From positions 134,218,715-134,282,714 of the forward strand of contig CM056742.1 in the NCBI GenBank assembly GCA_029851415.1: DNA of 64,000 nucleotides, written 5' to 3'. Shown in pieces: positions 11,830 through 49,306 of this stretch. Both the position numbers and the translations under genes were made by a program. Source of the DNA: Eretmocerus hayati. Taxonomy: Eukaryota; Arthropoda; Insecta; Hymenoptera; Aphelinidae. Every line of letters starts with the position of its first letter. The stretch's first letter is position 1. The notes beneath the pieces are model-generated. The model worked only from the letters and a program-made list of their open reading frames with translations, was not told the DNA's origin and searched no databases.

Positions 11830-12649
11830 GATGAGAGCTGGTTCACTCAAGAATCGCGATTTTGTCGTAGGTGCTCCGACGAAATTTTGTACAAGACTGC
11901 CGCATATTACGTGGCTTTCTGCTCTCCGAAGGCAAGAGCTGTTGAGGGTGGAGGGATCAAGAACATATTTTCTAACAATATCATGCTCTCATTGGTTGAT
12001 CGAAAGGGAAATGTTCGAGAACAGTGGCCTGTAGAAAGAGTTTTTTGAGATCATAAACTACGAGGCTTGTCCCGCGAGAGCGCCGCAAACGCACCGATTC
12101 TGCTCATAAACTCGAGCAAAAAAAATTCTCGTCAGGCTCGTAAACGCCTTGCTTTGGCGACACACATTTCATGAATGGAAAAATCCCATTGATTCGTCGA
12201 GCTACTCATTCGCTTCACTAAAAATGCTGGAAGAGAGAACTTGTTGGATTTTTAGTTATTTCAAAAATTGTCGTCATTGTACGCGTGTGAATCTAGGGAA
12301 GACCAAGATGGGTCACAGCTCATGGCATTGCTGTTGCTCAATCATATCAGCAGACTTCTTATAGAAAATGGGACTGAATGGAGAAGATTGCAGAAGATTT
12401 TTGAACACCGATTCAGAACTGAAATATTTTGAGAAGGCCCAAGGAGGGAACATTGATTGTTATAAAAATGATCTACGACTTCTCTTTAACGGCTGGAAAA
12501 CCGAGTAACTTGAGATCAGAACCTCTTTGCGTACCGAGGTTACGATTATTAATCGAAAAAGCTCACTTCCGAAACCATGAAAGTAATTCTAGATTCTCAT
12601 GAACATGATGATCAACCATAAATAATGTATTCGGTGGAAAGAGCAAAGA
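11830..12649. other. 5' non-coding interior of the DNA transposon
   Basis: Lies upstream of the minus-strand transposon gene and before the right TIR, so it is the expected promoter and 5' UTR. No TATA box or other element could be assigned with confidence. Confidence 0.45.
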
Positions 12650-31320: not shown

Positions 31321-31627
31321 ACATTGTTACGTTAAAAGTGTGGTCTATGTTTCGAGCCAGAGTAAATACTCTAGGGCTCGGGAATCTCTTTAGAGAGAAA
31401 TCGTCGCGGTAGCGAAAAGAGTAATATTAGATGCGTTCGAACGTTTGCGGCATGGCATCCGGCGTAACAACGGCAGTTCCGAGCCGGCTGAGAATGATTG
31501 AGCGTTAAATTTCCATATAAACGACGAAATCAAGAAGAAAAATATAAAAATTCTGTGAAGGACGAATCTAAATTTAGTACACTGTTGAGGCAAAATTGGT
31601 AAAGAAAAACGGTATAACGCAAGAAAC

Positions 31628-32246
31628 GGTTCCTGGATAAGAAACTATAGCATAAGAATCTGTACCTAACAGAAGAAAGTTGGTTCCTGTATACGGAATA
31701 ATGGTATAAAGATATGTACAATTTAGAGCGAAAAACGAACAAAAACTTCGGTTGCTGTATAAAGAACAATGGCATGTAGAATTTTTTTTTTTTTTTTTTT
31801 TTTTTGTAGAGCGAAAAACTGGTTCCTGTTTGAGGAACAAACAAAGATGAAATTTAATTCCTATACAAGGAATGAACGAAATGGACTTTGGTTTCTATAT
31901 AAGGAATAATGGTGTGAGGAATTCGGTTCCTGTATTAGGAACGAGAAATGAAATTAGGTTCCTGTATAAGGAACAATGGTATAAACAGTTGTGTACTGTA
32001 GAGAAAATTTGACTCTTGTAAAAATGAAGTTCGGTTCCTGTATAAGGAACAAGAATGAAATTTGGTTCCTGTATAAGGAACAATGTTATAAAGAGTTGTG
32101 TACTATAGATCAAATATTGATTCCTGTATGAGGAAAAATTGGAATTCGGTTCCTGTATAAGGAACAAAAAAAAATTGGTGAATATCTTCGCTGTTGTGTA
32201 AGGAGCGAATAAATCAGAAACAAACGGCTCCTGTATAAGGAGCTAA
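31628..32246 (-). repeat. Array of ~14 short palindromes in the left LTR
   Basis: The unit GGTTCCTGTATAAGGAAC, a 6-bp-arm inverted repeat, recurs with variation at about 31628, 31681, 31748, 31814, 31858, 31889, 31924, 31955, 32031, 32061, 32120, 32144, 32190 and 32226, separated by 10-50 bp of AT-rich spacer. Several copies have compensating changes, such as GGCTCCTGTATAAGGAGC, that keep the arms paired. Confidence 0.85.
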
Positions 32247-32750
32247 AGAAAATTTTGGAAGAAATGAGGATATAAATGAAGAAGTCTCACTTTTAAATTT
32301 CTGCTCCAGCGAAGAAAGGCCGCTCTTGGGAGGCTCGGTAACCCAAAAGAAGTTGCGCCGGTCGATGATGTTCTTTGGATGCGGGTCCGATGCGGGTCCT
32401 CCTCGGTTCTGCTCTCGCTGCTCCGAACGGACTGCCCGGAAAGCTCCTTCGGTCTCTCTTGCTGCGCTGAACGGGCTGCCGAAGACCTCCTTCGGTCCTG
32501 CCTTCGTCTTCCGCAGGTTGTTAGATGATCCTCTATGGCTCCTTGTTCGTCTTTCAAAATGTTGCCAGTTGGTTCCTTTCGGCTGGATACTCGGCGATTT
32601 CCTTAGCGGCTCTCCGTCAGCTGTGACTCCTCTCAGGGCGTTAGCTCCATTTAGCACAGGGCAGGAAAAGGCACTGACATCAGCCAGAGAAACTTTTTCC
32701 AAAAATCCTTGCCAGGAGCAGACGATACTTCTACTGAGGCGAATAATCGT

Positions 32751-32856
32751 GGGAATAGGCGCACACTGAAGTACTAATCAACCACGACTATATCGCAAAA
32801 ATTCAAAATGGAGTATCCAAAACGGGAATAGGCGCACACTGAAGTACTAATCAACC
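32751..32856. repeat. 33-bp direct repeat in the left LTR
   Basis: GGGAATAGGCGCACACTG plus the following 15 bases occurs identically at 32751-32783 and 32824-32856, separated by 40 bp. The same pair is present in the right LTR at 46510-46542 and 46583-46615. Confidence 0.9.
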
Positions 32857-35547
32857 GCTAAGGATCGCGTTCGAATCTCCAAAGAATTCTCAGCGAGAAG
32901 TTGCTGCGCGAGTAATAAGAATATTACTCGCAGCGGGATCGTATGGCCAACGGGAGCGTTCAAAATGGCCTATACTGGCAGACTGGAACTGCCTAGCTGG
33001 AGAGGGATAGTCTTCCACGGATGACTTCCCTGCACCCACTGACTAATTGATCTGGAGTGGCCACGTATAATGAGGGAGCGCGGACGTCGGAGAGAGACCG
33101 GGAGGAAATTTTCTCTTGCTTGACTGGTTTTGTGTTTCTCTTCGTTCTTCTTTTTGTTGTAACTTCTTTATGGGTTGATGTAATCGAGCCATCCCGTGAG
33201 CGTTCCTTTCCTTGCTGTATCTTTATTGATTAGGTATATTGGTATTTGGGTATTGTTAGTTATTCTAGTGTAAGTCTCCTTCACAATGTTGGCTTATGGC
33301 TAAACGGTATGCAGGTTATAGGTTCAATTTAATGCTATTTCTTCTATGTTAAACTTTTCATCTCACTAATTTTTAATGAAATAAAGACAATACATGATTC
33401 TTATCCATAGATTCTTAGGTTAACTTACTTTAAAGAGGTAAACAATTCAAAAATTTGTTGAATCTTGTGGGGCTGAGGGCCGTGGCGTACCATCACTCCT
33501 CCAAACATGGTTGACATGATGGGCAAGTTGGTGTCTGACTTAGTTTTCTGCTTGTACGAGGTGATACAAACAAAACCTTGAAGTGGTCGAGTTACAAATT
33601 TAATACGGATGAGGTAGGTTTACTATCTGCGTACGCCGATTCGCTTCATCTGTGCATCAAGATGGGACATGAAAATAGTAAGCTGCCTTGAATATTACTA
33701 TGCGTTGGTCTGAATACTTTCCTTATTTTGCATATGCTTCTATCTTTTCTTATTTCAACATCTACCTACTAATGTATCTTTATATGATAAACAACCATTT
33801 TCTTTAAGTGAAATTAGTATTGATTTTGCCACGCATCCTTTTATAATGCCGTATTAATGTGTATTCCACTGTTAATTTAGGATCAGTCGTTATTCGTGGC
33901 TTATGGATGGCACGAAATGTGATTTTTCTCATCTATTTCCAAAAGTGATCGTTAAAATTATTTCAATGATGCTGCACTGATGAGTGTTACAGAATCTCTG
34001 GCCAGTCGGCGGTATCTGGTGCGCGGACGTGGGAGAGAGAGCGGGTTTCGCACCCTGTATACATCCATTTTCACTTATTTTGGCTCGATATTACTCCCTT
34101 TACCTTTTTTTATTAAAAATTTCTATTACACTAATCTCTCCGTGCATGTAATTGCTTCCTGTGCATTCAGATCTTTGTTCTCTCTAGTAAACTCTATACA
34201 CTGAGAAAATTTTCTTGGTCGTACGGCCATGCGATTCGCCGCGCGACCAAAAAGTGGTATAGCCAGGAGAACCACACCGATATTTTTAATACATCGAACC
34301 ATCGGGGATGATTTGGCATCTGATGTTTCTGCTAAAATAAATAACCATAATCCATATTATTCAAATACCCCGATACTAGATAGAATCACAGTCGCATTAC
34401 GACCATTTTGCCACGAGAGACATTACATTTTTGCATGAAATAATACTGGTGAACGAGCATTATAATCCAAAGATTCTTTGAGGTTATTTAAGTGCAATGA
34501 CAAATCATAATCCAGTATTGGTCTGACAGCAATACAACTTTATAATAAAGTCGTATCGTTTGGATGGCGAAATACTACTCTCAGTGTAATGGGGATGGTG
34601 GGAACTATTTTTAGTCCAAGCGTGATATGATAAAACCCTATGGTTGCATGAACCCTTCAAGGTCAATGCGAATGGACTCATATAAAATAATGGGTCAAAA
34701 TATGATGTGAAAAATGGTTTAACGTAATCGCTTGCTATAATGGATAACTGATGATGTTCACTAAACTCATGGACATTTCCCTTACTTTTGCTACAACTAG
34801 TCCGACGCGTCAATACCCGTGAACCTTAGGTTTAGATAACTTCTAACACATCTTTTCCGCGTCTTCAACCTTAATAGGCCATAACCATGTGTTTTTCATC
34901 CAGCTATCCCTGGCGATAGAAGCTATGCAACCTGATTGTACTACGGCATCATATATTCCTAACAATTGTCTGATGATCATAAAGCTAAAAAGTGTCTCGA
35001 TGTGGCTTGATGCCTCAGATTATCTTCTATTTTGGCCATTGAACATTACTATAAAAATAAATATTTAGCAAAAATTTTCGCCACTTTGAACCAAACGGTA
35101 TTAAGCGCCGCAGTGGCAACTTCAGGAGATGAACAGTTACGCCAAACGCAGGCTCATTTTCATGTGCATCAGACGGCGATAATCGCATAAATGAGTGGTA
35201 GAAAAATTCAGAAATTTGGGCCTATGGACTATATGCGCGAACGCGGACGTCGGCGACTCGGTGAGTGGGGAGCCTCTCGTCGACTCATCTACGATGTGCA
35301 CTGCGCGACGGTCTGCGCACAAATGAACTCTAGTAGACCTTGAAAACTTTTAGGCCAATTGACTATATTAGCGAGCGCGGACGTCGGTGACGCTGAAGAA
35401 AATGTTGGAATATTTCTCCACTCTTATTTTAAGAGTTTGATTGCTAATACTTATGGAATAAATTTTCTCTTAGTGGCTACATACAAATAAGGGTATATTA
35501 CTACTAATCAAAGAAGGATTATTTCTAAAAATAGAGGCGACGTTACA

Positions 35548-35556
35548 CCCCCCCCC
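35548..35556 (-). promoter_or_regulatory. Polypurine tract (G9)
   Basis: On the minus strand AAC-GGGGGGGGG lies directly against the LTR end TGTAACG, the position required for plus-strand priming during reverse transcription. Its location beside the left LTR fixes the element's orientation. Confidence 0.85.
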
Positions 35557-35635
35557 GTTAAACGATTGCCGGAGGTTATGAAATAGAATCAGGCGATCGT
35601 GAATAGTTCGTTCCAGTGAAGCTGACTAAGTCTCG

Positions 35636-38600
35636 TCAGGATGGAGTCGCCTCCTGTATCTCTTCATTCAGGTTTCCAGTCAAGTGAGAAATTCTCAATC
35701 GGTTCGCGTGTACGATTTTTGGCCTATTTTTGATTTCGATCTTGACGTTGCTTCTACCAAGCACTTCAAGCACCCTGTGAGGGCCCGTGTAGTGGTCTCC
35801 AAATTTCCCGGGTTTTGGGCCTTTCAGCAAGAACACGTAGTCCCCTGTTTTGAGGCTAATTGGATTTATTCGCCTGTCAAAATATCTTTTGGCCCGAACT
35901 TTGGAGCTCGACAAATAGTCATAAGCCATTTTGCGGATCCCGACCAGCCGTGTTACTAGGTTCTGCATGTATCCTTGGTATGTTGGTAGGAGGTCTTGCT
36001 CACGTAGTGCCGCTGCCGAAGGTAGGCGCGCCAGCCTGCCGTGGACAATCTCGAAAGGAGTATGCCTTATGCTCTCGTGAATACACGTGTTGTAGTTGAG
36101 ACAGGCGATTTCAACCCAAGAGTCCCAGTCATTCACTTTATTGGCGTACTGTTTCAAGAATTCAGCCAGTACGTGGTGTGAACGTTCTAAACTACCATTA
36201 CTCTCTGCGTGGAATGCTGTCGATTTTATTTGACGTATACGGAATCTTTTGGCTATTCTCTGCATCAATTTACTTAAAAAGTTCCTACCTTGATCCGTTA
36301 ACACCACACGTGGCGCACCGTACACACAGATACATCTTTTCACAAATGCGTCTGCGATCGTAGCGGCAGTAGCGTCCGGGAGAGGTACAGCAATACAGTA
36401 TTTGGATAATTGATCCTGCATAGTTGATATAAATTGGTTCCCATTCTCAGTTTTTTCGAGGGGCCCTACAATATCCAGGGCCATTTTCTCGAAGATCGTG
36501 CCTGGAGTATCAGTTATTATCATTGGTTGTTTAGTTTTCACTCGCACTAATTTTTTTAGTTGGCACTCTAAACATTGTTGAATCCGCCGTTGAATGTCAT
36601 GTTTCATATTTTCCCAGTGGTAAGCTTGGCGTATCCTGTAATAGGTTTTGGATACGCCACGATGGCCTCCTACTGGGGATGCATGTAGTTCATAGAACAC
36701 ATTGTCTCTTTCTTTTTCTGGAACATATTTCAAGATGCCCTTGCAAATTATTATTTTAACGGTTGTTCCCCGAAAAACAGTGTCTATTAAATAAATAACA
36801 TCAATCCAACTTATTCCTAATATTTCCTTATTTCTTGCTATGCTTATTTCTGATAATTTTTCTTCCAAGAGTATTTCTCTTAGTTGAAGCAATGCTCTAT
36901 ATATATAATTCTTAACTATAGCCAGTGATTCTTCTTCTTTTCCTTTTACGCACAAGGCAAAATAAAATTTCCCGGATGATCGTTTTATTTTTGTGACGTC
37001 TCGCAGCCGGTAGTTGATGTCTCTAGGAATTTTACCGAGCTCGTCTAACTTGACGGCTCCCTCGTCACATGGGTTTCCACATTCATCAACAAAGAACGCT
37101 ACATTATCCTCTCTGTAAGATAATAGTTCCTTAGTTTCTACCCGATTGGTCTCGCCTTCGTTGTCTGATACATCAGCCATCAAGCTAAGGTCACTACCTG
37201 CTTCGGAGTTATTTTCATCTAGCTCATTTTCATCACAAGAGTTGTTTGAAGACGGCTGAGGAATAGATTCAACCTGGTCAATCTCTTCCGGGAGAGACTT
37301 TGGGGCGTTCAGATCCCGAGGTCGTTGTGCAATTTTGTCGGTCGGCGTCGTTGCGATGATTTTCGCTTGTTTTCTCGTTATAGCGTTGACAATCTCCGTT
37401 GACGAGTGTTCTTGAGAAGGTATTGGATTACGGGAGAGAGCGTCTGCGTGGGTATTACTTTTAGCTGGAGAATATTTTACGTCGAATGTATATTCCATAA
37501 GCTTCAATCTCCATTTCAGCACTCGCGTGTTTATATCTGCGTTTTTCATCCATAGTAGGGGTTGATGATCCGTGAAGACGGTGAAATGTTTGCAAAAAAG
37601 GTAGGGGCGGAAAATTTTAACTGAATATACCACAGCTAGCATTTCTCGCTCATATGTACTGTACTTCAGCTCGGGGCCTCTGAGTACCCGAGAGGTGTAT
37701 GCTATCGGTCTATCTTTGCCTGATTCATCGTCTATTTGTGACAGGATCCCCGCAATGCAGAATCCCGAAGCATCAGTGGTTATCCTATAACCTTGGTCTA
37801 GTTTAGGAAAAGCTAAGCACGGAGCTGTACAGAGCTTAGTTTTTAGAGTTTCGAAAGCTTCCTCTGTTTTTTCGGACCAGACAAAATCTTGGTCTTTTTG
37901 TAAAAGTTTTGTTAGCGGTTTTGAGGTTTTTGCAAAATCTTGGATGAACCGCCTGTAATAACCGGCCAAACCCAAAAATTGCCTAACATTTTTAGCGTTT
38001 ATTGGGCGAGGAAATTTGCTGACTGCTTCTACCTTACTTGGGTCCGGTTTTAAACCTTCTTGGCTAATAATGTGGCCGAGGTAGGCTACTTCGCGTTTCA
38101 AAAGTTCGCACTTATCAGGTTCCAATACTAATTTGGCCGTGCGTAACCTTGTCATCACTGCTCTGAACAAGTCATTGTGGCCTTCCAGCGTATCCGAAAA
38201 TAGTACAATGTCGTCCATAAAAGCGAAAACGCCGTTGTTAATTAAATCAGAGAGGGTAATTGAAATTGCTCGCTGCCATTCGACGCCAGAGTTACGTAAG
38301 CCAAAAGGCATTTTCAAATATTCGTAATGCCCAGTAGATGTACTAAAAGCAGTCAGGTGTCTAGAGTCTTCTGCTAGCCTTACTTGGAAGAATGAGTTTT
38401 TACAGTCGATTACCGTAAAATATACAGCCTTACCAAGCTGATCGAATATGTCTTGAATATTCGGGATGGGGTATGACATGGGGACAGTGATTTCGTTCAA
38501 CGGACGGAAATCTACAACTACCCGCCAGCGTGGTTTACCTGAGGAATCTGGTTTCTTTGGGACGCATAGCAAACTAGAGTTGTAACTACTCCTGGATTTC

Positions 38601-39961
38601 CTTATGATCCCTTGCCGTTCCATTTCTAAAACTTGTCTTTCTACCTCATCCTTCAGGGCATGAGGTAATCTATATTGCTTCACGTTAATGGGTCGATCGT
38701 GTATTATGTGTATTTTGTGTTCCACGATATCCGTTACTGGTAGTTCGTCTCCTTCCAAATAAAATCTGTCGTGGTTTTCTGCAATCAATTTCTCCGCGTG
38801 AAATCTCTCATCACCGTCGAGGTGATTCAAACGGATGATTTTCAAAAGTTTGTTTATTCGGTCTTCAACACATATTTCCTTTACCGCTTCTTGAGGTCCA
38901 TTACCTTCGTATTTTATCTCACCAGTTGACCTACAACATCCGGTACTCGTTTTTGTAGGCTCTTCTTCCGGTTCAATTGAACTAACCGAGTGAGGGGACA
39001 TAACCGTGTAAGTATTTACAGTTTGTAGATTATAGTTACACAGGCGTGCAACAGATCTTTCCGTCAGAGCTATGTTAGTCCCATCTACATTCAAGAACTT
39101 TCTACCAAAATCAATGATGGCTTTATTTTTAGACAGAAAACTAGCTCCTATTATTCCTTCAGCGGGTATTAGAAAATCATCGGGCACGACTTGGAATTCA
39201 ATTAAATTATTCATTACATATACCGAGGCTGTACCCAAGGTATTCATTGGAACGCCACCAACCCCTGTTAGTTGAATAGCTTTAGACGTGTTAATTAAAA
39301 CAGCATCTTGTAGCATTTTGTGCTTAATGATATTTCCTTCGGCACCCGTATCAATCAAAAATTGACCATACTTGTTGAGTCCCTTGTTAATGAAATCAAA
39401 ATATAGGAGAGGGTTCTGTCTGGATGTCCATGATGCGTTGTATATATCAGTAGTATGCCTGGAGCCTTGGATAAATTTGAATACTTCTGACCCGAACGAT
39501 AGAGTGTTATTTTCGAAATTCAATATCCCTCTCGCGCCAGTGAGAAATCTCATTCCTATTATCCCATCGTGGGGCATGAGAATAGAGTCATCTAATACAT
39601 GAAATTTTACTGCAAAATTTGAAAATTTTATTCTGGTGGTACCCACTGTAGGGATTTTGTCTTTATTGATACCTTGGATATTTACCGTCTCGCTGAGGTC
39701 GATTTCAGTATCAATTGGTAGAGCAGAAATTTTTATAAGGTTCCCTTGACTACCAGAATCAATCATCAAACTCACAATTTTACTATCGTATTTAAACCGA
39801 AGAGCCGGAATGTGAGCTGCGCAATCGTTTAGTCCATCGGAATCAGTTCTTTCAGAAGCTCGTCCATCGCGGTCGTGTTCGTTGAGCGCGTCGGTTGTAT
39901 CGGTGCCTCCCTCGCTGCGCTCAAGCCCGAGGCACCCTGTCCATTTCCCGACCTCCAGTTC
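35636..39961 (-). CDS. pol: Pol polyprotein: tandem protease, RT, RNase H, integrase
   Basis: Expressed by -1 frameshifting from gag; the pol frame opens at 39961 and overlaps gag by about 130 nt. Numbering below starts at the GTG at 39775, which is not a real start. Two aspartic protease domains come first: DSG at 6-8 with GIIG at 71-74, then DTG at 142-144 with GIIG at 207-210. The RT (about 350-530) has D457 and an FMDD box at 519-522 instead of the usual YxDD. RNase H (about 660-785) shows D668, E709, D736 and D778. The integrase has an HHCC zinc module (H1031, H1038, C1068, C1071), catalytic D1101, D1161 and E1197 with the last two 35 residues apart, and a GPY/F-like tail (YTGPHRVL, then VHANRLRISHL). 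An acidic linker separates RNase H from integrase. No internal stop was seen; the frame appears fully functional. Confidence 0.95.
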   Translation of the reverse strand, partial: ELEVGKWTGCLGLERSEGGTDTTDALNEHDRDGRASERTDSDGLNDCAAHIPALRFKYDSKIVSLMIDSGSQGNLIKISALPIDTEIDLSETVNIQGINKDKIPTVGTTRIKFSNFAVKFHVLDDSILMPHDGIIGMRFLTGARGILNFENNTLSFGSEVFKFIQGSRHTTDIYNASWTSRQNPLLYFDFINKGLNKYGQFLIDTGAEGNIIKHKMLQDAVLINTSKAIQLTGVGGVPMNTLGTASVYVMNNLIEFQVVPDDFLIPAEGIIGASFLSKNKAIIDFGRKFLNVDGTNIALTERSVARLCNYNLQTVNTYTVMSPHSVSSIEPEEEPTKTSTGCCRSTGEIKYEGNGPQEAVKEICVEDRINKLLKIIRLNHLDGDERFHAEKLIAENHDRFYLEGDELPVTDIVEHKIHIIHDRPINVKQYRLPHALKDEVERQVLEMERQGIIRKSRSSYNSSLLCVPKKPDSSGKPRWRVVVDFRPLNEITVPMSYPIPNIQDIFDQLGKAVYFTVIDCKNSFFQVRLAEDSRHLTAFSTSTGHYEYLKMPFGLRNSGVEWQRAISITLSDLINNGVFAFMDDIVLFSDTLEGHNDLFRAVMTRLRTAKLVLEPDKCELLKREVAYLGHIISQEGLKPDPSKVEAVSKFPRPINAKNVRQFLGLAGYYRRFIQDFAKTSKPLTKLLQKDQDFVWSEKTEEAFETLKTKLCTAPCLAFPKLDQGYRITTDASGFCIAGILSQIDDESGKDRPIAYTSRVLRGPELKYSTYEREMLAVVYSVKIFRPYLFCKHFTVFTDHQPLLWMKNADINTRVLKWRLKLMEYTFDVKYSPAKSNTHADALSRNPIPSQEHSSTEIVNAITRKQAKIIATTPTDKIAQRPRDLNAPKSLPEEIDQVESIPQPSSNNSCDENELDENNSEAGSDLSLMADVSDNEGETNRVETKELLSYREDNVAFFVDECGNPCDEGAVKLDELGKIPRDINYRLRDVTKIKRSSGKFYFALCVKGKEEESLAIVKNYIYRALLQLREILLEEKLSEISIARNKEILGISWIDVIYLIDTVFRGTTVKIIICKGILKYVPEKERDNVFYELHASPVGGHRGVSKTYYRIRQAYHWENMKHDIQRRIQQCLECQLKKLVRVKTKQPMIITDTPGTIFEKMALDIVGPLEKTENGNQFISTMQDQLSKYCIAVPLPDATAATIADAFVKRCICVYGAPRVVLTDQGRNFLSKLMQRIAKRFRIRQIKSTAFHAESNGSLERSHHVLAEFLKQYANKVNDWDSWVEIACLNYNTCIHESIRHTPFEIVHGRLARLPSAAALREQDLLPTYQGYMQNLVTRLVGIRKMAYDYLSSSKVRAKRYFDRRINPISLKTGDYVFLLKGPKPGKFGDHYTGPHRVLEVLGRSNVKIEIKNRPKIVHANRLRISHLTGNLNEEIQEATPS

Positions 39962-41313
39962 TCATTCATTTGCCTTTTTCGACACTCGTCTATCGTGTGT
40001 CCTTTGTTCTTACAGTACCGGCATTCCGGTAACCTAGTCGCATTGTTGCGCGAGCAAACTGCCGTTGTGTGTCCAAACTGACCGCACGCTTGGCACGCGT
40101 CATCCGTTTTCTTTGCTGGGTCCCTGCTGCGAAGTTTTGGGCAGTTTTTCGCTCCATGACCTGCTTGGTTGCATAGTTGGCAAGAGGAAATAGATGTCTG
40201 TGCCATTTGGTTTTGAAGCTTAAAACAGGTTTCAGCCGAGTGACCTCGTCGATCGCAAAATTGACAAACTGGGGACTCGTTTCCTTGTAGCTGGAAACAG
40301 GTGTCGGCCTTGTGACCCGGCCTATTACAAATTTGGCAGTTTAGCTGGGATCGCTGCCTAGCAGAGCAATCTGTTATAACGTGACCGGGACGCTTACAAT
40401 AGCTGCAATAGCCGTCTGTTTGACGTCTTGCGCTGCACCTCGTCGCGTCATGGTCGTTGGATTGGCAAATCTGACAGGCGTACACTAGTTTCCTAGCATC
40501 ACGATTTCTTGTCACATTTTCAGAACGTCCTTCCGACTGTTCACGCAAAGACTTTTTCGCTTCAAGTTTACGCTCTATACTAATAGCATTTTGAATAATG
40601 CTAGAGATGTCGTCGTCTTGCTCTAATTTAGCATCAATCTCGGGCTTGAGCCCGTTACGAAAACACTCAACAGTGTTTCTATTTACGTCAGTTCTAAACT
40701 CATCATCGACTCTCCCGGCACTTACGCGTTTAGCCTCTATGATTCGACGGGCAATATCTCGGACACGGTTTGCAAAAGCAATGACAGTCTCATTGTCTCT
40801 TTGATATTCATGGCCCATTTCACCTAACAGTTGGTGGACCGTTTTTGCTGGAGCGTATATGGTTTTAATATAGTCTTTCAATGCTTCTACCGTGGTAAAG
40901 GATTGCCCTTGAATTGCCGTCCGTGCTTCACCAATCAATTTGCTTCGTAGTAAACGAGTAAGGTTACCTTCGTGTGTTGGGCCTACCATCTCTTTGGCTT
41001 CATCACATCCCTCGAAAAATACGCTAAGGGGCGGTCTTTTCCCGTCAAACTCTGGCACGACTTTTAAAGCGTCCTTCAAGGTTACTTGAGCCATTTCTAC
41101 TTGGTGAACTTCGGGAATTTCTAGAGGAATTTCTACTTGTATTGCTAAATCAGCCGCCGCAGGTGCTTCCCTGATCGTTATATCACTTTCGTCTTCTTCT
41201 GAGGTTTCTTCTTCAGGTAATGGTGCGGGTGGAAAAGGGTAAAATGCGTCCACCTCTTCGTTGGCGCTATTACTATTCCTCGCTAAATTTCTTGTAATTC
41301 TTCGCCCGTTCAT
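39829..41313 (-). CDS. gag: Gag with seven CCHC zinc knuckles
   Basis: Starts at ATG 41313; an upstream in-frame GTG at 41322 is less likely. It overlaps the end of the 235-aa ORF by about 40 nt. The N-terminus is acidic and Pro-rich. The middle (about residues 75-260) has the retrotransposon Gag core feel (VPEFDGKRPPLSVFFEGC, then FANRVRDIARR). The C-terminal third has seven CX2CX4HX4C knuckles at 40476-39982: CQIC, CSYC, CQIC, CQFC, CQLC, CQAC and CRYC units. Retroviral and gypsy Gags usually have one to three. The knuckles should bind the genomic RNA during particle assembly. The C-terminus contains the frameshift site that leads into pol. Confidence 0.93.
   Translation of the reverse strand: MNGRRITRNLARNSNSANEEVDAFYPFPPAPLPEEETSEEDESDITIREAPAAADLAIQVEIPLEIPEVHQVEMAQVTLKDALKVVPEFDGKRPPLSVFFEGCDEAKEMVGPTHEGNLTRLLRSKLIGEARTAIQGQSFTTVEALKDYIKTIYAPAKTVHQLLGEMGHEYQRDNETVIAFANRVRDIARRIIEAKRVSAGRVDDEFRTDVNRNTVECFRNGLKPEIDAKLEQDDDISSIIQNAISIERKLEAKKSLREQSEGRSENVTRNRDARKLVYACQICQSNDHDATRCSARRQTDGYCSYCKRPGHVITDCSARQRSQLNCQICNRPGHKADTCFQLQGNESPVCQFCDRRGHSAETCFKLQNQMAQTSISSCQLCNQAGHGAKNCPKLRSRDPAKKTDDACQACGQFGHTTAVCSRNNATRLPECRYCKNKGHTIDECRKRQMNENWRSGNGQGASGLSAAREAPIQPTRSTNTTAMDELLKELIPMD
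39902..39949 (-). promoter_or_regulatory. -1 programmed ribosomal frameshift signal (gag to pol)
   Basis: In the gag frame the minus strand reads G GGA AAT (39949-39943), a canonical X XXY YYZ slippery heptamer. A 6-nt spacer (GGACAG) follows, then a perfect 8-bp stem: GGTGCCTC (39936-39929) pairing with GAGGCACC (39909-39902) around a 19-nt loop. The pol frame is open across the site, from 39961, and gag terminates downstream at 39829. Geometry fits known retroviral -1 sites. Confidence 0.9.
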
Positions 41314-41980
41314 TAATGACACTTATATTATAGTAATTCCAGTATAATTGGGATATAAAAAGTTCTACTCGTGGTCCTTGGCACAAGGTTTTCGAGTGTA
41401 CCACTAGTTTTGCCCACTGGAATATCTTGTTCGCCGGTACAACAATGTGGTCTGCCTGATAGCTCTCTTTGTTGCGCACACAATCTAATAGCTTACTGAT
41501 TAGTCTATTTAATTTTAATATTCTTCTTACTTTACCGATCTTACAATTTCCTGGTAACAGGGAAGAATCTATATGGAGCCCGTAATCTAAATCGACAAGG
41601 ACGTGACGATCTAGGTAAAATCCTTGGTCGTCTTGTTTCAAAGAGAGTCCTAAATGCTGGCTACTCAGTAATCTAATAGCGGCTAACTTCAAACCATAGT
41701 AAGTGATTCTATGTAGACCGAAGAAAGTGGCTGGGCTTATTTTTCCGTCATTCGTCTGTAAATAATTGACCTTACCTAACTCGCTTTCATAAACCTTAAT
41801 TTCTCCGGAGTGTAGACTATCATGATAAAAATATACCTTAATTTTACAATATTTATCTGGCTTAGATTCTAATACATCTAAAATTTTATAGGCCTTGAAA
41901 AAATGGTCGTCGAAAGCTCGTTCTTCGGCTAACTCTTTCAAAGAAGGGATGAACTTACTCTTGGTTTCGACCGCTTGCAT
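41273..41980 (-). CDS. Pre-gag ORF, 235 aa, unknown family (copy B)
   Basis: Starts with a true ATG at 41980 that lies inside the end of the previous ORF, and its 3' end overlaps gag, so the genes are chained by short overlaps. No known domain is recognised. It shares collinear landmarks with the 193-aa ORF: DDHF (24-27), YHDSLHSGE (52-60), SPATFFG (82-88), LLSS (104-107), HIDSSLL (136-142) and NKIF (184-187), each at nearly the same spacing. Soluble, mixed alpha/beta composition, no signal or membrane segment. Its role in the element is unknown; conservation of an intact frame in a young copy suggests it is used. It could be a capsid-accessory, RNA-binding or host-interaction protein. Confidence 0.75.
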   Translation of the reverse strand: MQAVETKSKFIPSLKELAEERAFDDHFFKAYKILDVLESKPDKYCKIKVYFYHDSLHSGEIKVYESELGKVNYLQTNDGKISPATFFGLHRITYYGLKLAAIRLLSSQHLGLSLKQDDQGFYLDRHVLVDLDYGLHIDSSLLPGNCKIGKVRRILKLNRLISKLLDCVRNKESYQADHIVVPANKIFQWAKLVVHSKTLCQGPRVELFISQLYWNYYNISVINERAKNYKKFSEE

Positions 41981-42269
41981 TGATGTTTAGATTATGAAAC
42001 TTATCTTCTAACCTTTGCAATGACCTATGATGATTGTACAGGTGATTTTCAGTCGCAATAACTGAAGCAGCTAAATCCGATTCATCTTCTTCTAAGGTTT
42101 TAGCTTTCCTAAATATTTCAGCAATTTTCTTTTCAGCTTCTTCTACTCTAATACGTAAAATTCTAGTTAAAACTAATAATTGTTCGTTCTGTATCTGGAC
42201 TTGCCGCCAATCTTGTTCAAGTTTGCTTACAAGTTTTTGACAGGCACAGCAACGCCGCTCGCTGTTCAT
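41955..42269 (-). CDS. Pre-gag coiled-coil ORF 2, about 104 aa
   Basis: The first ATG is at 42269, four bases after the stop of the preceding ORF (TAG at 42276-42274); the frame also extends to a GTG at 42293. An N-terminal cysteine cluster (RRCCACQK) is followed by a long charged helix with heptad-like spacing (IRVEEAEKKIAEI, then ENHLYNHHRSLQRLEDK). It overlaps the start of the 235-aa ORF by about 26 nt. The segment RVEEAEKKIAEI resembles RIKKAEVKIDEL in the upstream ORF, hinting at a duplicated pair. Function unknown; oligomerisation is likely. Confidence 0.6.
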   Translation of the reverse strand: MNSERRCCACQKLVSKLEQDWRQVQIQNEQLLVLTRILRIRVEEAEKKIAEIFRKAKTLEEDESDLAASVIATENHLYNHHRSLQRLEDKFHNLNINASGRNQE

Positions 42270-42273
42270 CTGC

Positions 42274-42528
42274 CTAGAGGTTTCCGGCTGCACGCTGCTG
42301 CAACGCTCTTAACCTATTTTCGAATTCCGGAACGGATTGCTGAGCCGGCCTGATACCTTCTTTCATCCACTCTCTACTATGTTCTAATTCGTCTATCTTA
42401 ACTTCGGCTTTTTTTATTCTAAATTCTACCTTCTCTAAGAACTTCAAAGAGGAACGTATTGATTTATGTAACCTATTGGACTCACTCTTGGCTATATAAA
42501 TGAATTCTTTTAGTTCGAAATCGTTCAT
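42274..42528 (-). CDS. Pre-gag coiled-coil ORF 1, about 84 aa
   Basis: Begins at ATG 42528 and ends at TAG 42274-42276. Almost the whole product is a charged amphipathic helix (SNRLHKSIRSSLKFLEK, FRIKKAEVKIDELEHSREW), consistent with a coiled coil. It is followed after four bases by the ATG of the next ORF, an arrangement compatible with termination-reinitiation. No family is recognised. Confidence 0.6.
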   Translation of the reverse strand: MNDFELKEFIYIAKSESNRLHKSIRSSLKFLEKVEFRIKKAEVKIDELEHSREWMKEGIRPAQQSVPEFENRLRALQQRAAGNL

Positions 42529-42534
42529 GAGCAC

Positions 42535-42753
42535 ATTCTATCTTGCAAAAATTTTTCAAAATTTGGATATTAGGTGAGAACTAGTAATTGAATAGTTAAG
42601 TTGGCAAAGCTGGATTGGCTAATGAATCTTTGATCATATAGTGAGTTTCTTACTTGAAACAAAAGGTTCTTGATGACGTTTTTGGGAATGGAAAGGATGA
42701 ATCTAGAATCTCGTCTTCTCCCTATATTATAGATAATCAAATTACATTACAGA
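42535..42753. other. Spacer between pre-gag ORFs
   Basis: AT-rich, about 220 bp. On the minus strand, a run of T followed by GCAAG and ATAG just before the 84-aa ORF could act as a splice acceptor. Nothing firmer can be said. Confidence 0.4.
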
Positions 42754-44259
42754 TTAAAATTCTGGGTATCTTAATTTGAAACAATAAGGACAAAAATGAG
42801 GTGTCTCTTTCACTTGGCACTCTTCACACTTAATAACTCTAGTAGGCACTATTTTCTTCGGAGGGTCAAACGTCACTCCCTCGAAAATGTCAGTTTCACT
42901 TATGATTTTTGGACGAGACCCTCTTCTACGCACTTGCACTACAAGGCCTGGCTCCTTGATGGCCTCGTGATGGGCTGGCTTCGTCCTTCTGATTTGATCG
43001 GCAGGTTTTTGCTTGCTTGCGGCTGGCCGGAGTGCTGGTGCTGCCTTTCGAAGTGCTGCCACGGGCTTCACTTCCTTAATCAGCTCCGTTGGAGTTGGTA
43101 TTGGGCCACGTTTCGGGATTCGAACCTCGGGTAAAAGTGGCTGCACTGCGTATTTGGAAACGCAGGTGGAGGCTTTCTCCGCCTTGGGTTGTGATCGCCT
43201 TGGTTTCCCCAAAGCCTGCTCGCATTGCCTGCGGAGCTTTGCTAATTTAGAGTTCTTTGCGTCGACAGCCTTCTTGGTGGACTGGCCCTTGGACGACGAC
43301 TTCCTTCTCCTTGCGGTTGGTTCACCTCTCGTCGTTGAGGTCGGTGGGAGGTCTCCAGGCGATGGAAGAGTTACTGCCTCGTCCCCAGTAACGACGGTTC
43401 GATCTGTAGGAGATGGTCCTGGCTTGTGGGGCTGATCCGACCCTGGCTCGTAGTTTTCTTGGGCGGGGTATGGGACGGACTCGGAATTTCGGCCTGTTGC
43501 CCCTCCTGCTGCTTGTTGAGATGTACCTATACCGTTGGGTAGCTCGGGTGTAGGTGTCAGAAGGGCCTGAACTGGAGCTTGTGGTGATATCCGAGACTTG
43601 TCTGAGCCTTGCTCCGGTTCGTCGCTGGATCCTATCGGACTGATTAGTCGCTCGTATTGTTGACCTCTCGACACGAGGTCTTCCCAGAAACCTTCTTGGT
43701 AAAGGGGGTCTCCAGATGATTCCTCTGGTGTCAGAGAAACTGTATCTTGGTGCGGCGGCGACTGGTCTGGGTAAGCCTGCTGCGGCGGCGTCGAGCAGAG
43801 CTTGCCAGGCTGCGCGTCCTTGGATGCCTCGTTGTTGGTTGGTGATGTATGCTGCGTAAGTACGGCCGGAGTCGGCGGTCCTTCTTCTGGCGCTTTGCCG
43901 AAGCCTTCTTCGTTGGCTTTCGGGTGTGGACGGCAGAGAGCCTGGTGTTGCGTCTGGGTCGGATCCCACAGAGGGGGAACCGGACGCTGCTCCTGAGTCA
44001 GACGACGTGGTGGAAGTGGTTCTGTATATATATATACAGGAATGTACTCGCCTCTGAGTTTGGCAAGCTGCTCAGAAAACACTTGGAATTCTGTTTTCCT
44101 ATAACAGTCCCGTAGAGTGAGTGAGATGTTTGTCCTGTATATGGCGTTGAACTTCGCTTGGAGGGCTCGTACGTAGGGCTTCGCTCTTCTTCGCTGAATT
44201 TGGCTCGGTGTGTTCTTGTATTGGAACACCGGGAACAAGGTCACTAACGAGAAAAACAC
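42754..44259 (-). CDS. Pre-gag ORF, ~500 aa, Pro/Ser-rich with basic and zinc-finger-like C-terminus, no AUG
   Basis: The frame runs 501 codons from a GTG and contains no methionine codon at all, so it must be entered by splicing or non-AUG initiation. TTTTTCTCGTTAG at its 5' end looks like a splice acceptor, giving an exon start TG-ACC. Layout: short ordered N-terminus (QRRRAKPYVRALQAKFNAIY), a long Pro/Ser/Gln-rich middle (about 80-300), a Lys/Arg-rich part (about 310-460) and a terminal CEEC...HFCPYC cluster resembling a small zinc ribbon. A second, Arg-rich 215-codon frame (43322-43969) overlaps it in another frame. Function unknown; nucleic-acid binding is plausible from the basic and Cys features. 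Confidence 0.6.
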   Translation of the reverse strand: MFFSLVTLFPVFQYKNTPSQIQRRRAKPYVRALQAKFNAIYRTNISLTLRDCYRKTEFQVFSEQLAKLRGEYIPVYIYTEPLPPRRLTQEQRPVPPLWDPTQTQHQALCRPHPKANEEGFGKAPEEGPPTPAVLTQHTSPTNNEASKDAQPGKLCSTPPQQAYPDQSPPHQDTVSLTPEESSGDPLYQEGFWEDLVSRGQQYERLISPIGSSDEPEQGSDKSRISPQAPVQALLTPTPELPNGIGTSQQAAGGATGRNSESVPYPAQENYEPGSDQPHKPGPSPTDRTVVTGDEAVTLPSPGDLPPTSTTRGEPTARRRKSSSKGQSTKKAVDAKNSKLAKLRRQCEQALGKPRRSQPKAEKASTCVSKYAVQPLLPEVRIPKRGPIPTPTELIKEVKPVAALRKAAPALRPAASKQKPADQIRRTKPAHHEAIKEPGLVVQVRRRGSRPKIISETDIFEGVTFDPPKKIVPTRVIKCEECQVKETPHFCPYCFKLRYPEF

Positions 44260-44337
44260 AAGATTCTAGAGAAGGATCTTTGGGATTATGGGTTACAGTT
44301 GTGGAAATGCCGGAGTGTTTTTGAAAAGAGTCATTAC

Positions 44338-44919
44338 CTAATCATTATTATTGTGGTCAATCCTATTTCTGTTAGCTAAAACTTCAAGCCTTCTCAACCA
44401 TGCGTAAAATTCTGATCTGTAAATTCTATTCCCTTTAAAAGTGAATGTCCTACGATAGCGTTTATTATGGAAATGCTTTTGGATTTCAATTACTTTATCA
44501 ATTACTTGAAATAAGAAATCAAAATTTCTGAATCCTGGGACCTTGGAAAGAAAAAGTGGACAATCTATGAAAACTGGAGGCTCTAAAGTTTCTTGGGAGA
44601 TGTAAATATCACCCTCCTCGTCATATTTGAAAAAGGCTTTCCAAGTTTCAGACGCTAACAATAGTTGGATATATTTCCAAGTTTCTTGCAGGACCTTGAG
44701 TTTGGCTCCCAAGTAAACCGCTGAACTGGATTTATGGTTGGAAACCAGAAGGAATGGATGTTTGCGGGAGCCTGCTACAGCTACAAGTTTTCCCGTGGAT
44801 ATATGGTCATGCCATATGTACACCCTCTGAGTGGCTTCTCCTGTTTCTATGAAAGTTCTGAGAAGCTTTCTACATATACAAAAATGCACGTCGAAAATGC
44901 CTTTTATCGTGTGGGCCAC
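44338..44919 (-). CDS. Pre-gag ORF, ~193 aa, unknown family (copy A), no AUG
   Basis: First ORF after the PBS. It has no methionine codon; the apparent start is a GTG whose G is the last base of a strong acceptor-like sequence (TTTTTTATTTTTCCATTCTAG). It shares collinear landmarks with the 235-aa ORF: DVHF (10-13), WHDHISTGK (36-44), SSAVYLG (65-71), LLAS (87-90), FIDCPLF (117-123) and NRIY (164-167). It ends with an Asn/Asp tail and a TAG followed directly by a GTAATG donor-like motif. No known domain, signal or membrane segment. It probably belongs to the same unknown accessory family as the 235-aa product. Confidence 0.6.
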   Translation of the reverse strand: MAHTIKGIFDVHFCICRKLLRTFIETGEATQRVYIWHDHISTGKLVAVAGSRKHPFLLVSNHKSSSAVYLGAKLKVLQETWKYIQLLLASETWKAFFKYDEEGDIYISQETLEPPVFIDCPLFLSKVPGFRNFDFLFQVIDKVIEIQKHFHNKRYRRTFTFKGNRIYRSEFYAWLRRLEVLANRNRIDHNNND

Positions 44920-45059
44920 TAGAATGGAAAAATAAAAAATTTTACTGGACTATTTTCGAAAATTTCGGAAAAATAACCTTTCTTTCCAAGAATTTTTGAA
45001 AATTTCGAAAAAATTTTTTATTCACTTTGACATTTCACGACTTCGTTTCTTCTCTCTAA

Positions 45060-45080
45060 AATCCCCCCGGGGCCTCCATT
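45060..45080 (-). promoter_or_regulatory. Primer-binding site candidate
   Basis: Five bases inside the LTR, the minus strand reads TGGAGGCCCCGGGGGGAT, starting with the TGG that pairs with a tRNA CCA end. It predicts a primer tRNA ending CGGGGCCT-CCA. A tRNA-Thr isoacceptor is plausible, but I could not confirm the identity. Confidence 0.7.
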
Positions 45081-45083
45081 TTC

Positions 45084-48000
45084 TGTTACGTTAAAAGTGT
45101 GGTCTATGTTTCGAGCCAGAGTAAATACTCTAGGGCTCGGGAATCTCTTTAGAGAGAAATCGTCGCGGTAGCGAAAAGAGTAATATTAGATGCGTTCGAA
45201 CGTTTGCGGCATGGCATCCGGCGTAACAACGGCAGTTCCGAGCCGGCTGAGAATGATTGAGCGTTAAATTTCCATATAAACGACGAAATCAAGAAGAAAA
45301 ATATAAAAATTCTGTGAAGGACGAATCTAAATTTAGTACACTGTTGAGGCAAAATTGGTAAAGAAAAACGGTATAACGCAAGAAACGGTTCCTGGATAAG
45401 AAACTATAGCATAAGAATCTGTACCTAACAGAAGAAAGTTGGTTCCTGTATACGGAATAATGGTATAAAGATATGTACAATTTAGAGCGAAAAACGAACA
45501 AAAACTTCGGTTGCTGTATAAAGAACAATGGCATGTAGAATTTTTTTTTTTTTTTTTTTTTTTTGTAGAGCGAAAAACTGGTTCCTGTTTGAGGAACAAA
45601 CAAAGATGAAATTTAATTCCTATACAAGGAATGAACGAAATGGACTTTGGTTTCTATATAAGGAATAATGGTGTGAGGAATTCGGTTCCTGTATTAGGAA
45701 CGAGAAATGAAATTAGGTTCCTGTATAAGGAACAATGGTATAAACAGTTGTGTACTGTAGAGAAAATTTGACTCTTGTAAAAATGAAGTTCGGTTCCTGT
45801 ATAAGGAACAAGAATGAAATTTGGTTCCTGTATAAGGAACAATGTTATAAAGAGTTGTGTACTATAGATCAAATATTGATTCCTGTATGAGGAAAAATTG
45901 GAATTCGGTTCCTGTATAAGGAACAAAAAAAAATTGGTGAATATCTTCGCTGTTGTGTAAGGAGCGAATAAATCAGAAACAAACGGCTCCTGTATAAGGA
46001 GCTAAAGAAAATTTTGGAAGAAATGAGGATATAAATGAAGAAGTCTCACTTTTAAATTTCTGCTCCAGCGAAGAAAGGCCGCTCTTGGGAGGCTCGGTAA
46101 CCCAAAAGAAGTTGCGCCGGTCGATGATGTTCTTTGGATGCGGGTCCGATGCGGGTCCTCCTCGGTTCTGCTCTCGCTGCTCCGAACGGACTGCCCGGAA
46201 AGCTCCTTCGGTCTCTCTTGCTGCGCTGAACGGGCTGCCGAAGACCTCCTTCGGTCCTGCCTTCGTCTTCCGCAGGTTGTTAGATGATCCTCTATGGCTC
46301 CTTGTTCGTCTTTCAAAATGTTGCCAGTTGGTTCCTTTCGGCTGGATACTCGGCGATTTCCTTAGCGGCTCTCCGTCAGCTGTGACTCCTCTCAGGGCGT
46401 TAGCTCCATTTAGCACAGGGCAGGAAAAGGCACTGACATCAGCCAGAGAAACTTTTTCCAAAAATCCTTGCCAGGAGCAGACGATACTTCTACTGAGGCG
46501 AATAATCGTGGGAATAGGCGCACACTGAAGTACTAATCAACCACGACTATATCGCAAAAATTCAAAATGGAGTATCCAAAACGGGAATAGGCGCACACTG
46601 AAGTACTAATCAACCGCTAAGGATCGCGTTCGAATCTCCAAAGAATTCTCAGCGAGAAGTTGCTGCGCGAGTAATAAGAATATTACTCGCAGCGGGATCG
46701 TATGGCCAACGGGAGCGTTCAAAATGGCCTATACTGGCAGACTGGAACTGCCTAGCTGGAGAGGGATAGTCTTCCACGGATGACTTCCCTGCACCCACTG
46801 ACTAATTGATCTGGAGTGGCCACGTATAATGAGGGAGCGCGGACGTCGGAGAGAGACCGGGAGGAAATTTTCTCTTGCTTGACTGGTTTTGTGTTTCTCT
46901 TCGTTCTTCTTTTTGTTGTAACTTCTTTATGGGTTGATGTAATCGAGCCATCCCGTGAGCGTTCCTTTCCTTACTGTATCTTTATTGATTAGGTATATTG
47001 GTATTTGGGTATTGTTAGTTATTCTAGTGTAAGTCTCCTTCACAATGTTGGCTTATGGCTAAACGGTATGCAGGTTATAGGTTCAATTTAATGCTATTTC
47101 TTCTATGTTAAACTTTTCATCTCACTAATTTTTAATGAAATAAAGACAATACATGATTCTTATCCATAGATTCTTAGGTTAACTTACTTTAAAGAGGTAA
47201 ACAATTCAAAAATTTGTTGAATCTTGTGGGGCTGAGGGCCGTGGCGTACCATCACTCCTCCAAACATGGTTGACATGATGGGCAAGTTGGTGTCTGACTT
47301 AGTTTTCTGCTTGTACGAGGTGATACAAACAAAACCTTGAAGTGGTCGAGTTACAAATTTAATACGGATGAGGTAGGTTTACTATCTGCGTACGCCGATT
47401 CGCTTCATCTGTGCATCAAGATGGGACATGAAAATAGTAAGCTGCCTTGAATATTACTATGCGTTGGTCTGAATACTTTCCTTATTTTGCATATGCTTCT
47501 ATCTTTTCTTATTTCAACATCTACCTACTAATGTATCTTTATATGATAAACAACCATTTTCTTTAAGTGAAATTAGTATTGATTTTGCCACGCATCCTTT
47601 TATAATGCCGTATTAATGTGTATTCCACTGTTAATTTAGGATCAGTCGTTATTCGTGGCTTATGGATGGCACGAAATGTGATTTTTCTCATCTATTTCCA
47701 AAAGTGATCGTTAAAATTATTTCAATGATGCTGCACTGATGAGTGTTACAGAATCTCTGGCCAGTCGGCGGTATCTGGTGCGCGGACGTGGGAGAGAGAG
47801 CGGGTTTCGCACCCTGTATACATCCATTTTCACTTATTTTGGCTCGATATTACTCCCTTTACCTTTTTTTATTAAAAATTTCTATTACACTAATCTCTCC
47901 GTGCATGTAATTGCTTCCTGTGCATTCAGATCTTTGTTCTCTCTAGTAAACTCTATACACTGAGAAAATTTTCTTGGTCGTACGGCCATGCGATTCGCCG

Positions 48001-49306
48001 CGCGACCAAAAAGTGGTATAGCCAGGAGAACCACACCGATATTTTTAATACATCGAACCATCGGGGATGATTTGGCATCTGATGTTTCTGCTAAAATAAA
48101 TAACCATAATCCATATTATTCAAATACCCCGATACTAGATAGAATCACAGTCGCATTACGACCATTTTGCCACGAGAGACATTACATTTTTGCATGAAAT
48201 AATACTGGTGAACGAGCATTATAATCCAAAGATTCTTTGAGGTTATTTAAGTGCAATGACAAATCATAATCCAGTATTGGTCTGACAGCAATACAACTTT
48301 ATAATAAAGTCGTATCGTTTGGATGGCGAAATACTACTCTCAGTGTAATGGGGATGGTGGGAACTATTTTTAGTCCAAGCGTGATATGATAAAACCCTAT
48401 GGTTGCATGAACCCTTCAAGGTCAATGCGAATGGACTCATATAAAATAATGGGTCAAAATATGATGTGAAAAATGGTTTAACGTAATCGCTTGCTATAAT
48501 GGATAACTGATGATGTTCACTAAACTCATGGACATTTCCCTTACTTTTGCTACAACTAGTCCGACGCGTCAATACCCGTGAACCTTAGGTTTAGATAACT
48601 TCTAACACATCTTTTCCGCGTCTTCAACCTTAATAGGCCATAACCATGTGTTTTTCATCCAGCTATCCCTGGCGATAGAAGCTATGCAACCTGATTGTAC
48701 TACGGCATCATATATTCCTAACAATTGTCTGATGATCATAAAGCTAAAAAGTGTCTCGATGTGGCTTGATGCCTCAGATTATCTTCTATTTTGGCCATTG
48801 AACATTACTATAAAAATAAATATTTAGCAAAAATTTTCGCCACTTTGAACCAAACGGTATTAAGCGCCGCAGTGGCAACTTCAGGAGATGAACAGTTACG
48901 CCAAACGCAGGCTCATTTTCATGTGCATCAGACGGCGATAATCGCATAAATGAGTGGTAGAAAAATTCAGAAATTTGGGCCTATGGACTATATGCGCGAA
49001 CGCGGACGTCGGCGACTCGGTGAGTGGGGAGCCTCTCGTCGACTCATCTACGATGTGCACTGCGCGACGGTCTGCGCACAAATGAACTCTAGTAGACCTT
49101 GAAAACTTTTAGGCCAATTGACTATATTAGCGAGCGCGGACGTCGGTGACGCTGAAGAAAATGTTGGAATATTTCTCCACTCTTATTTTAAGAGTTTGAT
49201 TGCTAATACTTATGGAATAAATTTTCTCTTAGTGGCTACATACAAATAAGGGTATATTACTACTAATCAAAGAAGGATTATTTCTAAAAATAGAGGCGAC
49301 GTTACA
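45084..49306 (-). repeat. Right LTR (5' LTR of the element), 4,223 bp
   Basis: Copy of 31325-35547 with the same length and boundaries; it should contain the promoter for the minus-strand transcript. Repeated GCGGACGTCGG motifs (equivalents of 33078, 34022, 35243 and 35376 in the left LTR) contain an ACGT core and could be transcription-factor sites. ACAT follows at 49307-49310. Confidence 0.97.
45387..46005 (-). repeat. Array of ~14 short palindromes in the right LTR
   Basis: Same array as in the left LTR, offset by 13,759. In this copy it lies near the end of the 5' LTR, so it may be part of the transcribed leader. Confidence 0.85.

Follow-up and report, generated by a model that had tools for sequence, protein, structure and literature searches.

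We describe here a giant long terminal repeat (LTR) retrotransposon found on the minus strand at positions 31325-49306 of a 64,000-nucleotide stretch (C2:134218715-134282714, referred to as the window) of the genome of Eretmocerus hayati, described as a parasitoid wasp attacking whiteflies (PMC10482854). This 18-kb Ty3/gypsy element contains gag, an unbroken pol and, before gag, five open reading frames (ORFs). We consider it reasonably probable that its genome is built like that of a complex retrovirus, with an accessory-gene region between the primer binding site (PBS) and gag, start codons made by splicing, and small genes coupled by stop and restart. The anatomy of the element, the conservation, selection and paralogy of its pre-gag genes and the positions of its motifs are direct observations. 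All copy counts and locus comparisons come from the E. hayati genome (assembly of 692,130,109 bases in 17 contigs; other loci carry L numbers), and all features are given in window coordinates on the minus strand.

Recurrence of and selection on the pre-gag genes

The five ORFs are closely packed. ORF1 (exon 44338-44918; open frame as first listed, 44919-44338) encodes 193 amino acids (aa), including a predicted splice-made methionine, and ORF2 (exon 42754-44243; open frame as first listed, 44259-42754, 501 aa) encodes about 496 aa with an N-terminal basic domain, followed by a proline/serine-rich part and a CxxC...CxxC motif at the C terminus. ORF3 (42274-42528, 84 aa), the coiled-coil-like ORF4 (41955-42269, 104 aa) and ORF5 (41273-41980, 235 aa) have their own ATGs, that of ORF4 lying 4 nucleotides (nt) past the ORF3 stop and that of ORF5 overlapping ORF4 by 26 nt. 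Gag (39829-41313, 497 aa, with CCHC knuckles) starts at an ATG within ORF5, with which it shares 41 nt.

A genome search with ORF5 gave 82 matches, including the window's own, at identities from 100% to 25%, three copies being near-identical. Thirty ORF5-bearing loci, including the window copy, were fetched for gene content, and phmmer recognised ORF5 and gag in all 30, ORF4 in 29 and ORF3 in 18, in constant order; the arrangement ORF3-ORF4-ORF5-gag is kept down to approximately 36% identity in ORF5. In a separate genome search with pol, 34 copies were scored out of 6806 first-look candidates, and 25 of the 34 have an ORF5 match 1.5-3.0 kb upstream of pol.

The pairwise ORF5 match is missing in the other nine pol copies, which weighs against the reading preferred here. 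Six of the nine were examined, ORF2-ORF4 being assigned by eye: L052 retains ORF2, ORF3 and ORF4 with ORF5 not recognisable, L053 looks internally deleted and retains an ORF2-like frame, L054 and L055 carry other pre-gag genes, and L058 and L059 have an ORF5-like domain within an ORF of 546-575 aa.

Selection was estimated by the Nei-Gojobori method as the ratio of non-synonymous to synonymous rates (dN/dS), 6 of 23 comparisons (5 of 19 pre-gag) being excluded for saturated dS. All 14 scorable pre-gag comparisons of the 19 gave values below 0.5 (range 0.03-0.47); these are rough, because several of the remaining dS exceed 1. Between the window and a copy 86% identical to it, dN/dS was 0.20 for ORF1, 0.47 for part of ORF2, 0.08 for ORF3, 0.30 for ORF4, 0.13 for ORF5 and 0.05 for gag. 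Other pairs gave 0.08-0.17 for ORF5, 0.03-0.08 for ORF4, 0.18-0.21 for ORF3 and 0.06-0.13 for gag. Synonymous divergence from the 86% copy is uneven among adjacent ORFs (window ORF3-ORF5 against L012: 0.26 in ORF4, 1.7 in ORF3), hinting at recombination among copies or at overlapping RNA constraint.

Recurrence in diverged copies at low dN/dS shows that the pre-gag ORFs are not chance frames; judged by this comparison, they are real genes. It is conceivable that they are instead accidental frames or frames in decay, derived from host or viral sequence that was captured and then carried along by a burst of young copies, and the near-identity of three copies would fit, as would the scarcity of relatives: searches of the protein database with ORF5, ORF1 and profile A1 returned two annotated relatives only, both from E. 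hayati, and the ORF5 family has no match in PDB and one weak match to Pfam, in 1 of 19 members. Nevertheless, dN/dS below 0.5 in every scorable comparison and conservation to about 36% identity make this extremely improbable; the selection test refutes decay for ORF1 and ORF3-ORF5 and is weakest for ORF2, whose value of 0.47 indicates weak constraint and counts against our view of that gene. The sequence-only reading of the window had proposed that an animal gypsy lineage acquired a module of several accessory genes between LTR and gag, an idea to be abandoned if the pre-gag ORFs were absent from other copies of the same pol lineage or decayed neutrally. Neither is the case, ORF5 alone being present in most scored copies, and this core of the proposal is borne out. 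The roles suggested for the module in that reading, in assembly, export or host interaction, are conjectural.

The possibility that ORF5 is a piece of gag or pol was rejected, as no profile match was found. An AlphaFold2 model of ORF5 was useless (pLDDT 35.9).

Candidate splice signals at ORF1 and ORF2

ORF1 and ORF2 of the window contain no methionine codon at all, a property that the first description of the sequence had not mentioned. In the recognised ORF1s (4) and ORF2s (12), the conserved protein starts at or next to an in-frame GTG, the G of which ends a YAG resembling a splice acceptor (YAG/TG). At 13 of these 16 sites at least 10 of the 15 upstream bases are pyrimidines. The window acceptors read ...ttccattctAG at 44920-44919 for ORF1 and ...ttctcgttAG, ending at 44244, for ORF2. 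Because these sites were picked for having YAGTG in frame close to where the conserved protein starts, which in itself tells against the reading, the fair comparison is with the background rate: in-frame YAGTG with at least 10/15 pyrimidines occurs 0.025 times per 100 codons in all frames of the loci.

A candidate splice donor, TTAAAA/GTGAGAC, lies in the 5' LTR at 46048-46050 (LTR position 3257; last exon A at 46050, GT at 46049-46048). A candidate AAAA/GTRAG donor 728-975 bases before the PBS is found in the window, L039, L042 and L044, that is, in four of six families with more than 1 kb of upstream sequence, and also in the near-identical copies L089 and L090; in L043 and L052 the stretches upstream of the PBS that could be scanned are merely 233 and 665 nt. 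Markov shuffles put the chance of such a donor within 1.5 kb of the PBS at 1-3% per family, the window and L039 not being independent. An exon ending in AAAA, joined to an exon beginning with TG, would therefore yield AAAATG, which is a good start context in insects. Thus ORF1 and ORF2 seem to obtain their start codons only by RNA splicing, and the motifs would be compatible with spliced subgenomic messages sharing one donor.

Several observations weigh against this reading. Pyrimidine tracts are weak in L043, L044 (ORF2) and L084, and L083 and L086 have a second candidate acceptor. In a distant lineage, three of five ATG-less or nearly ATG-less ORFs have a YAG/TG site, and the tract is strong in one only. 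Neither L040 nor L085 has AAAAGTRAG in the 1.5 kb nearest the PBS (in L085 the motif occurs at a distance of 2.6 kb), the PBS itself was not seen in L083, L084, L086, L041 and L045, and the window LTR contains a second AAAAGTRAG far upstream, at 48544.

The annotated gene model P0002, which belongs to the relative L040, bears on the question from both sides. It uses both the ORF1 and the ORF2 acceptor, but its first exon, 2.7 kb upstream, ends in G and so produces GTG (valine) and not A/TG. This model would suit another explanation, in which a longer spliced frame has its first coding exon upstream and includes ORF1 and ORF2 as internal exons, the TG after AG being a plain phase-1 junction and no start codon being made; in P0002 an exon with an ATG is linked to ORF1 and ORF2 in exactly that phase. 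The peptide tag of its distant first exon, however, occurs in no other locus among those collected, and a plain phase-1 junction leaves unexplained both the TG at all 16 recognised junctions and the A-ending donor in four of six families. We therefore regard this explanation as rather unlikely and prefer start codons made by splicing.

Hairpin array in the LTR

About 50 nt 3' of the donor begins an array of 13 hairpins of the form GTTCCT-TATAC-AGGAAC (45389-46001; LTR positions 3306-3918), counted with up to 3 differences. The repeat was not found in the internal part of the element or in the window flanks. The 86% copy L039 has nine such hairpins after its own donor, L089 has 11 and L090 has 13; L040, L042, L044, L052 and L085 have none, and L043 shows one weak match. 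The array segment folds better than 20 shuffled versions of it (z-score -4.4). When 20 of the 22 repeats from the window and L039 are compared, pairing holds in 94% of pair cells; there are three double changes, and a further six changes on one side only preserve a pair (five to U-G, one to G-U). An RNA hairpin is favoured by this pattern over a DNA palindrome, but 16-47 of 500 shuffles match the covariation measures, structures slid by +2 and +3 show equally many double changes, and the array is limited to the window's own family, points that count against the preferred scheme set out below.

Proposed coupling of ORF3, ORF4, ORF5 and gag

In most copies each of the four genes ORF3, ORF4, ORF5 and gag starts with an ATG of its own, and neighbours abut or overlap stop-to-start. 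Between ORF3 and ORF4 there is at one extreme a gap of 4 nt and at the other an overlap of 20 nt; ORF4 and ORF5 overlap by none to 26 nt, often by 8 nt (ATGANTRA); and the overlap of ORF5 with gag is mostly 41-47 nt, replaced by a short gap in L031 and L037. Such boundaries fit termination-reinitiation, which occurs in some RNA viruses and LINEs and may operate here as well. Contrary to stop and restart, the gene model P0001 splices ORF4 to ORF5.

The polycistronic look of these boundaries might be extended to the whole region. ORF1 and ORF2 would then be translated without any splicing, from unspliced RNA, by GTG initiation or reinitiation, the five ORFs and gag forming one polycistronic unit like the short ORFs of the MDG1 group discussed below, and the in-frame codon at every junction is indeed GTG. 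Yet GTG initiation needs neither pyrimidine tracts ending in YAG, present at 13 of 16 sites, nor a recurrent GTRAG donor, and we judge it quite improbable. Our preference remains for splicing at ORF1 and ORF2 combined with stop and restart further downstream.

For this preferred scheme we infer every RNA and protein step from the sequence. Transcription would start within the long LTR. Full-length unspliced RNA would retain the hairpins and the PBS and serve both as genome and as gag-pol message. The LTR donor with its AAAA exon end would be spliced to the AG/TG acceptors before ORF1 and ORF2, which would remove hairpins and PBS and create A/TG. The resulting messages would encode ORF2, a basic, disordered, regulator-like protein, and ORF1, a protein of the ORF5 family, and ORF3, ORF4, ORF5 and gag would be translated off one message by coupled stop and restart. 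Lying 3' of the donor, the array would be present only in unspliced RNA; retroviral packaging signals are likewise confined to unspliced RNA. It may therefore act as a packaging or export signal of genomic RNA only, with ORF2 as a candidate RNA-binding or transactivating partner.

Gene families in the pre-gag region

ORF1 is a paralogue of ORF5: a held-out profile built from 16 ORF5 rows, with no ORF1 among them, matches window ORF1 with E=5e-11. With the full profile, a second tandem ORF5-family gene was detected in L051 (1e-16) and L049 (3e-13) and a third in L049 (6e-4). Weak extra members occur in L047 and L048 (0.0015-0.004), one of those in L047 reaching 5.6e-5 by hhalign. The reversed-sequence control, run with the full profile only, gave a best match of 0.25. 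L054 contains a further tandem pair, 62% identical over 48 residues, that it shares with L055; by profile this pair is unrelated to ORF5 and constitutes a second pre-gag paralogue family. A zinc-finger-like ORF in L054 is related to one in L058 (E=1e-14).

In a FastTree phylogeny of 23 reverse transcriptases (RTs), 20 copies of the group separate from three copies of the L002 family, which is 37% identical in RT and sits on a long branch. L057, the sole L002-family copy with an upstream part examined, was not matched by the ORF5 profile, and by eye no gene was recognised ahead of its gag. Given the paralogues, the tandem families and the differing gene sets of sister lineages, we interpret the pre-gag region as an accessory locus subject to gain, tandem duplication and loss.

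LTRs, pol and classification

The 5' LTR (45084-49306) and the 3' LTR (31325-35547) are 4223 bp each and identical at 4222 of 4223 positions, with one mismatch; their alignment and the ORF coordinates confirm the initial description of an 18-kb element with 4.2-kb LTRs and five frames upstream of gag. A target site duplication, ATGT on the element strand (ACAT on the plus strand), stands at both flanks. The PBS (45061-45078, TGGAGGCCCCGGGGGGAT) begins five bases past the 5' LTR and has 1 mismatch to the tRNA-Thr form TGGAGGCCCCGGAGGGAT, the complement of the 3' end of a tRNA-Thr(AGT) gene in the E. hayati genome. Allowing at most 4 mismatches, 8 of 11 leader stretches have a PBS, four of them exact TGGAGGCCCCGGAGGGAT and four with 1-4 differences. 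The polypurine tract (35548-35556) consists of nine G. Near the LTR end (approximately 45100-45160) we noted by eye an inverted repeat, C(C)GAGC...GGCTCG, with a changing loop, possibly a conserved U5 hairpin; the same repeat was seen, also by eye, at the matching place in L039, L040, L042 and L043.

Pol (35636-39775, 1379 aa, no internal stop) has the order protease-RT-RNase H-integrase, with two protease domains (PR1-PR2-RT-RH-INT), and Pfam matches comprise retropepsin, RVT_1, RNase H, integrase H2C2 and core, and zinc knuckles. Among solved structures, the RT finds Ty3-G on top (7q5b, E=9e-68), followed by an 'Enzymatic polyprotein' (8r0s, 1.5e-48) and by retroviral Gag-Pol and RT entries at 4e-31 and weaker, and is thus nearer to Ty3 than to retroviral RT. 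Domain order, RT affinity, and LTRs with a short target duplication, PBS and polypurine tract all place the element in Ty3/gypsy (Metaviridae), and it is apparently a young, intact member of this clade. There is no env, as the 3' LTR begins only 88 nt after the pol stop; the env after pol that characterises Errantivirus is thus missing, and the window's pre-gag proteins contain no membrane segment or myristoylation motif. A search of viral_contigs with pol gave no match.

At its start (38963-39775) pol has a duplicated retropepsin domain, the two parts lying within approximately the first 225 residues. Over 84 residues the two domains share 33% identity (E=4e-16), and a D-S/T-G is present in each. 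Both are matched in 27 of the 34 pol copies, and in the remaining seven the second domain is matched separately at least twice. This suggests a protease that may be a natural single-chain dimer; an AlphaFold2 model of the pair (pLDDT 32.7) was too poor to test the idea. A candidate -1 slippery site, G GGA AAT (39949), in the frame of gag where its overlap with pol begins, was dropped; by eye it did not seem to be shared by L053.

Outside the element, the window contains a 1370-aa open frame of unknown kind (7738-11850), perhaps belonging to another repeat.

Discussion

Accessory ORFs before gag are already known in the MDG1 group and in Ogre, and extra coding capacity is known in Burro. Plant Ogre elements, the comparison chosen in the sequence-only reading, share with our element giant size, LTRs of several kb and an ORF before gag. 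Their pol has an intron between protease and RT, whereas the 1379-aa pol described here is open through both domains, the host is an insect and several pre-gag genes are present. Ogre is reported to have a single ORF of about 550 codons before gag, or 1-2 additional ORFs (PMC6431247, PMC1142308). The proposed independence from Ogre fits the uninterrupted pol and the failure to find pre-gag relatives outside E. hayati in the protein database, PDB and Pfam; as a precedent, however, Ogre is more distant than the MDG1 group.

The MDG1 group of Drosophila (412, Stalker2, mdg1) has been reported to carry sORF1 and sORF2 upstream of gag, with low non-synonymous rates; these are of about 110 and 70 aa, lie on unspliced RNA, and sORF2 is described as a FAST-like membrane protein (PMC11952523). 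Like our element, these are insect Metaviridae without env and with accessory ORFs before gag. Our element differs in having five ORFs of 84-496 aa, splice-like starts and paralogous gene families, the comparison being one of pre-gag features. No ATG-initiated ORF of 40-150 aa with a KD19 of at least 1.6, the measure used here for a FAST-like membrane protein, was found in the window's pre-gag region; the same scan found none in 24 of 25 relatives' stretches and one 44-aa match, in L040, that lacks a myristoylation motif. Burro of planarians is likewise a giant animal gypsy element with added coding capacity, but most of its extra domains are reported to be part of a polyprotein of some 5000 aa that shows env homology (PMC6431247). 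Here, gag and pol occupy frames of their own, of 497 and 1379 aa, and Pfam detected no env or apoptosis-type domains.

Complex retroviruses and foamy viruses have a major splice donor 5' of the packaging region and spliced messages for small regulatory proteins. The layout proposed for the element resembles theirs more than that of ordinary insect retrotransposons, if the predicted donor and acceptors are used. The element differs from them in being without env and in having its accessory genes before gag and not after pol.

Our literature searches turned up no description of this element family, which does not prove that none exists. A recent burst of LTR elements in E. hayati, driven by gypsy elements, has been reported, and the family is not described in the parts of that report drawn on here (PMC13116730). 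Somewhat more tentatively than the genome organisation itself, for we hold it to be slightly short of an even case, we propose that an env-less insect gypsy clade has independently evolved the organisation of complex retroviruses: a donor in the LTR, AUG-making acceptors, hairpins confined to genomic RNA, small genes coupled by stop and restart, a fused single-chain protease, and a fast-turning accessory locus with tandem arrays as in host-conflict genes.

According to a paper of 2005, introns upstream of gag had not been reported for any LTR retroelement (PMC1142308). If our reading is true, LTR retrotransposons outside vertebrates would have built retrovirus-style accessory genomes in the very position where that paper knew of none, and the creation of start codons by splicing, in several genes of a single element, would be a neat way to keep accessory proteins off genomic RNA. 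The presence of several lineages within one genome makes gain, duplication and loss of retroelement accessory genes traceable, and the occurrence of gene families in tandem suggests that element and wasp are engaged in an arms race.

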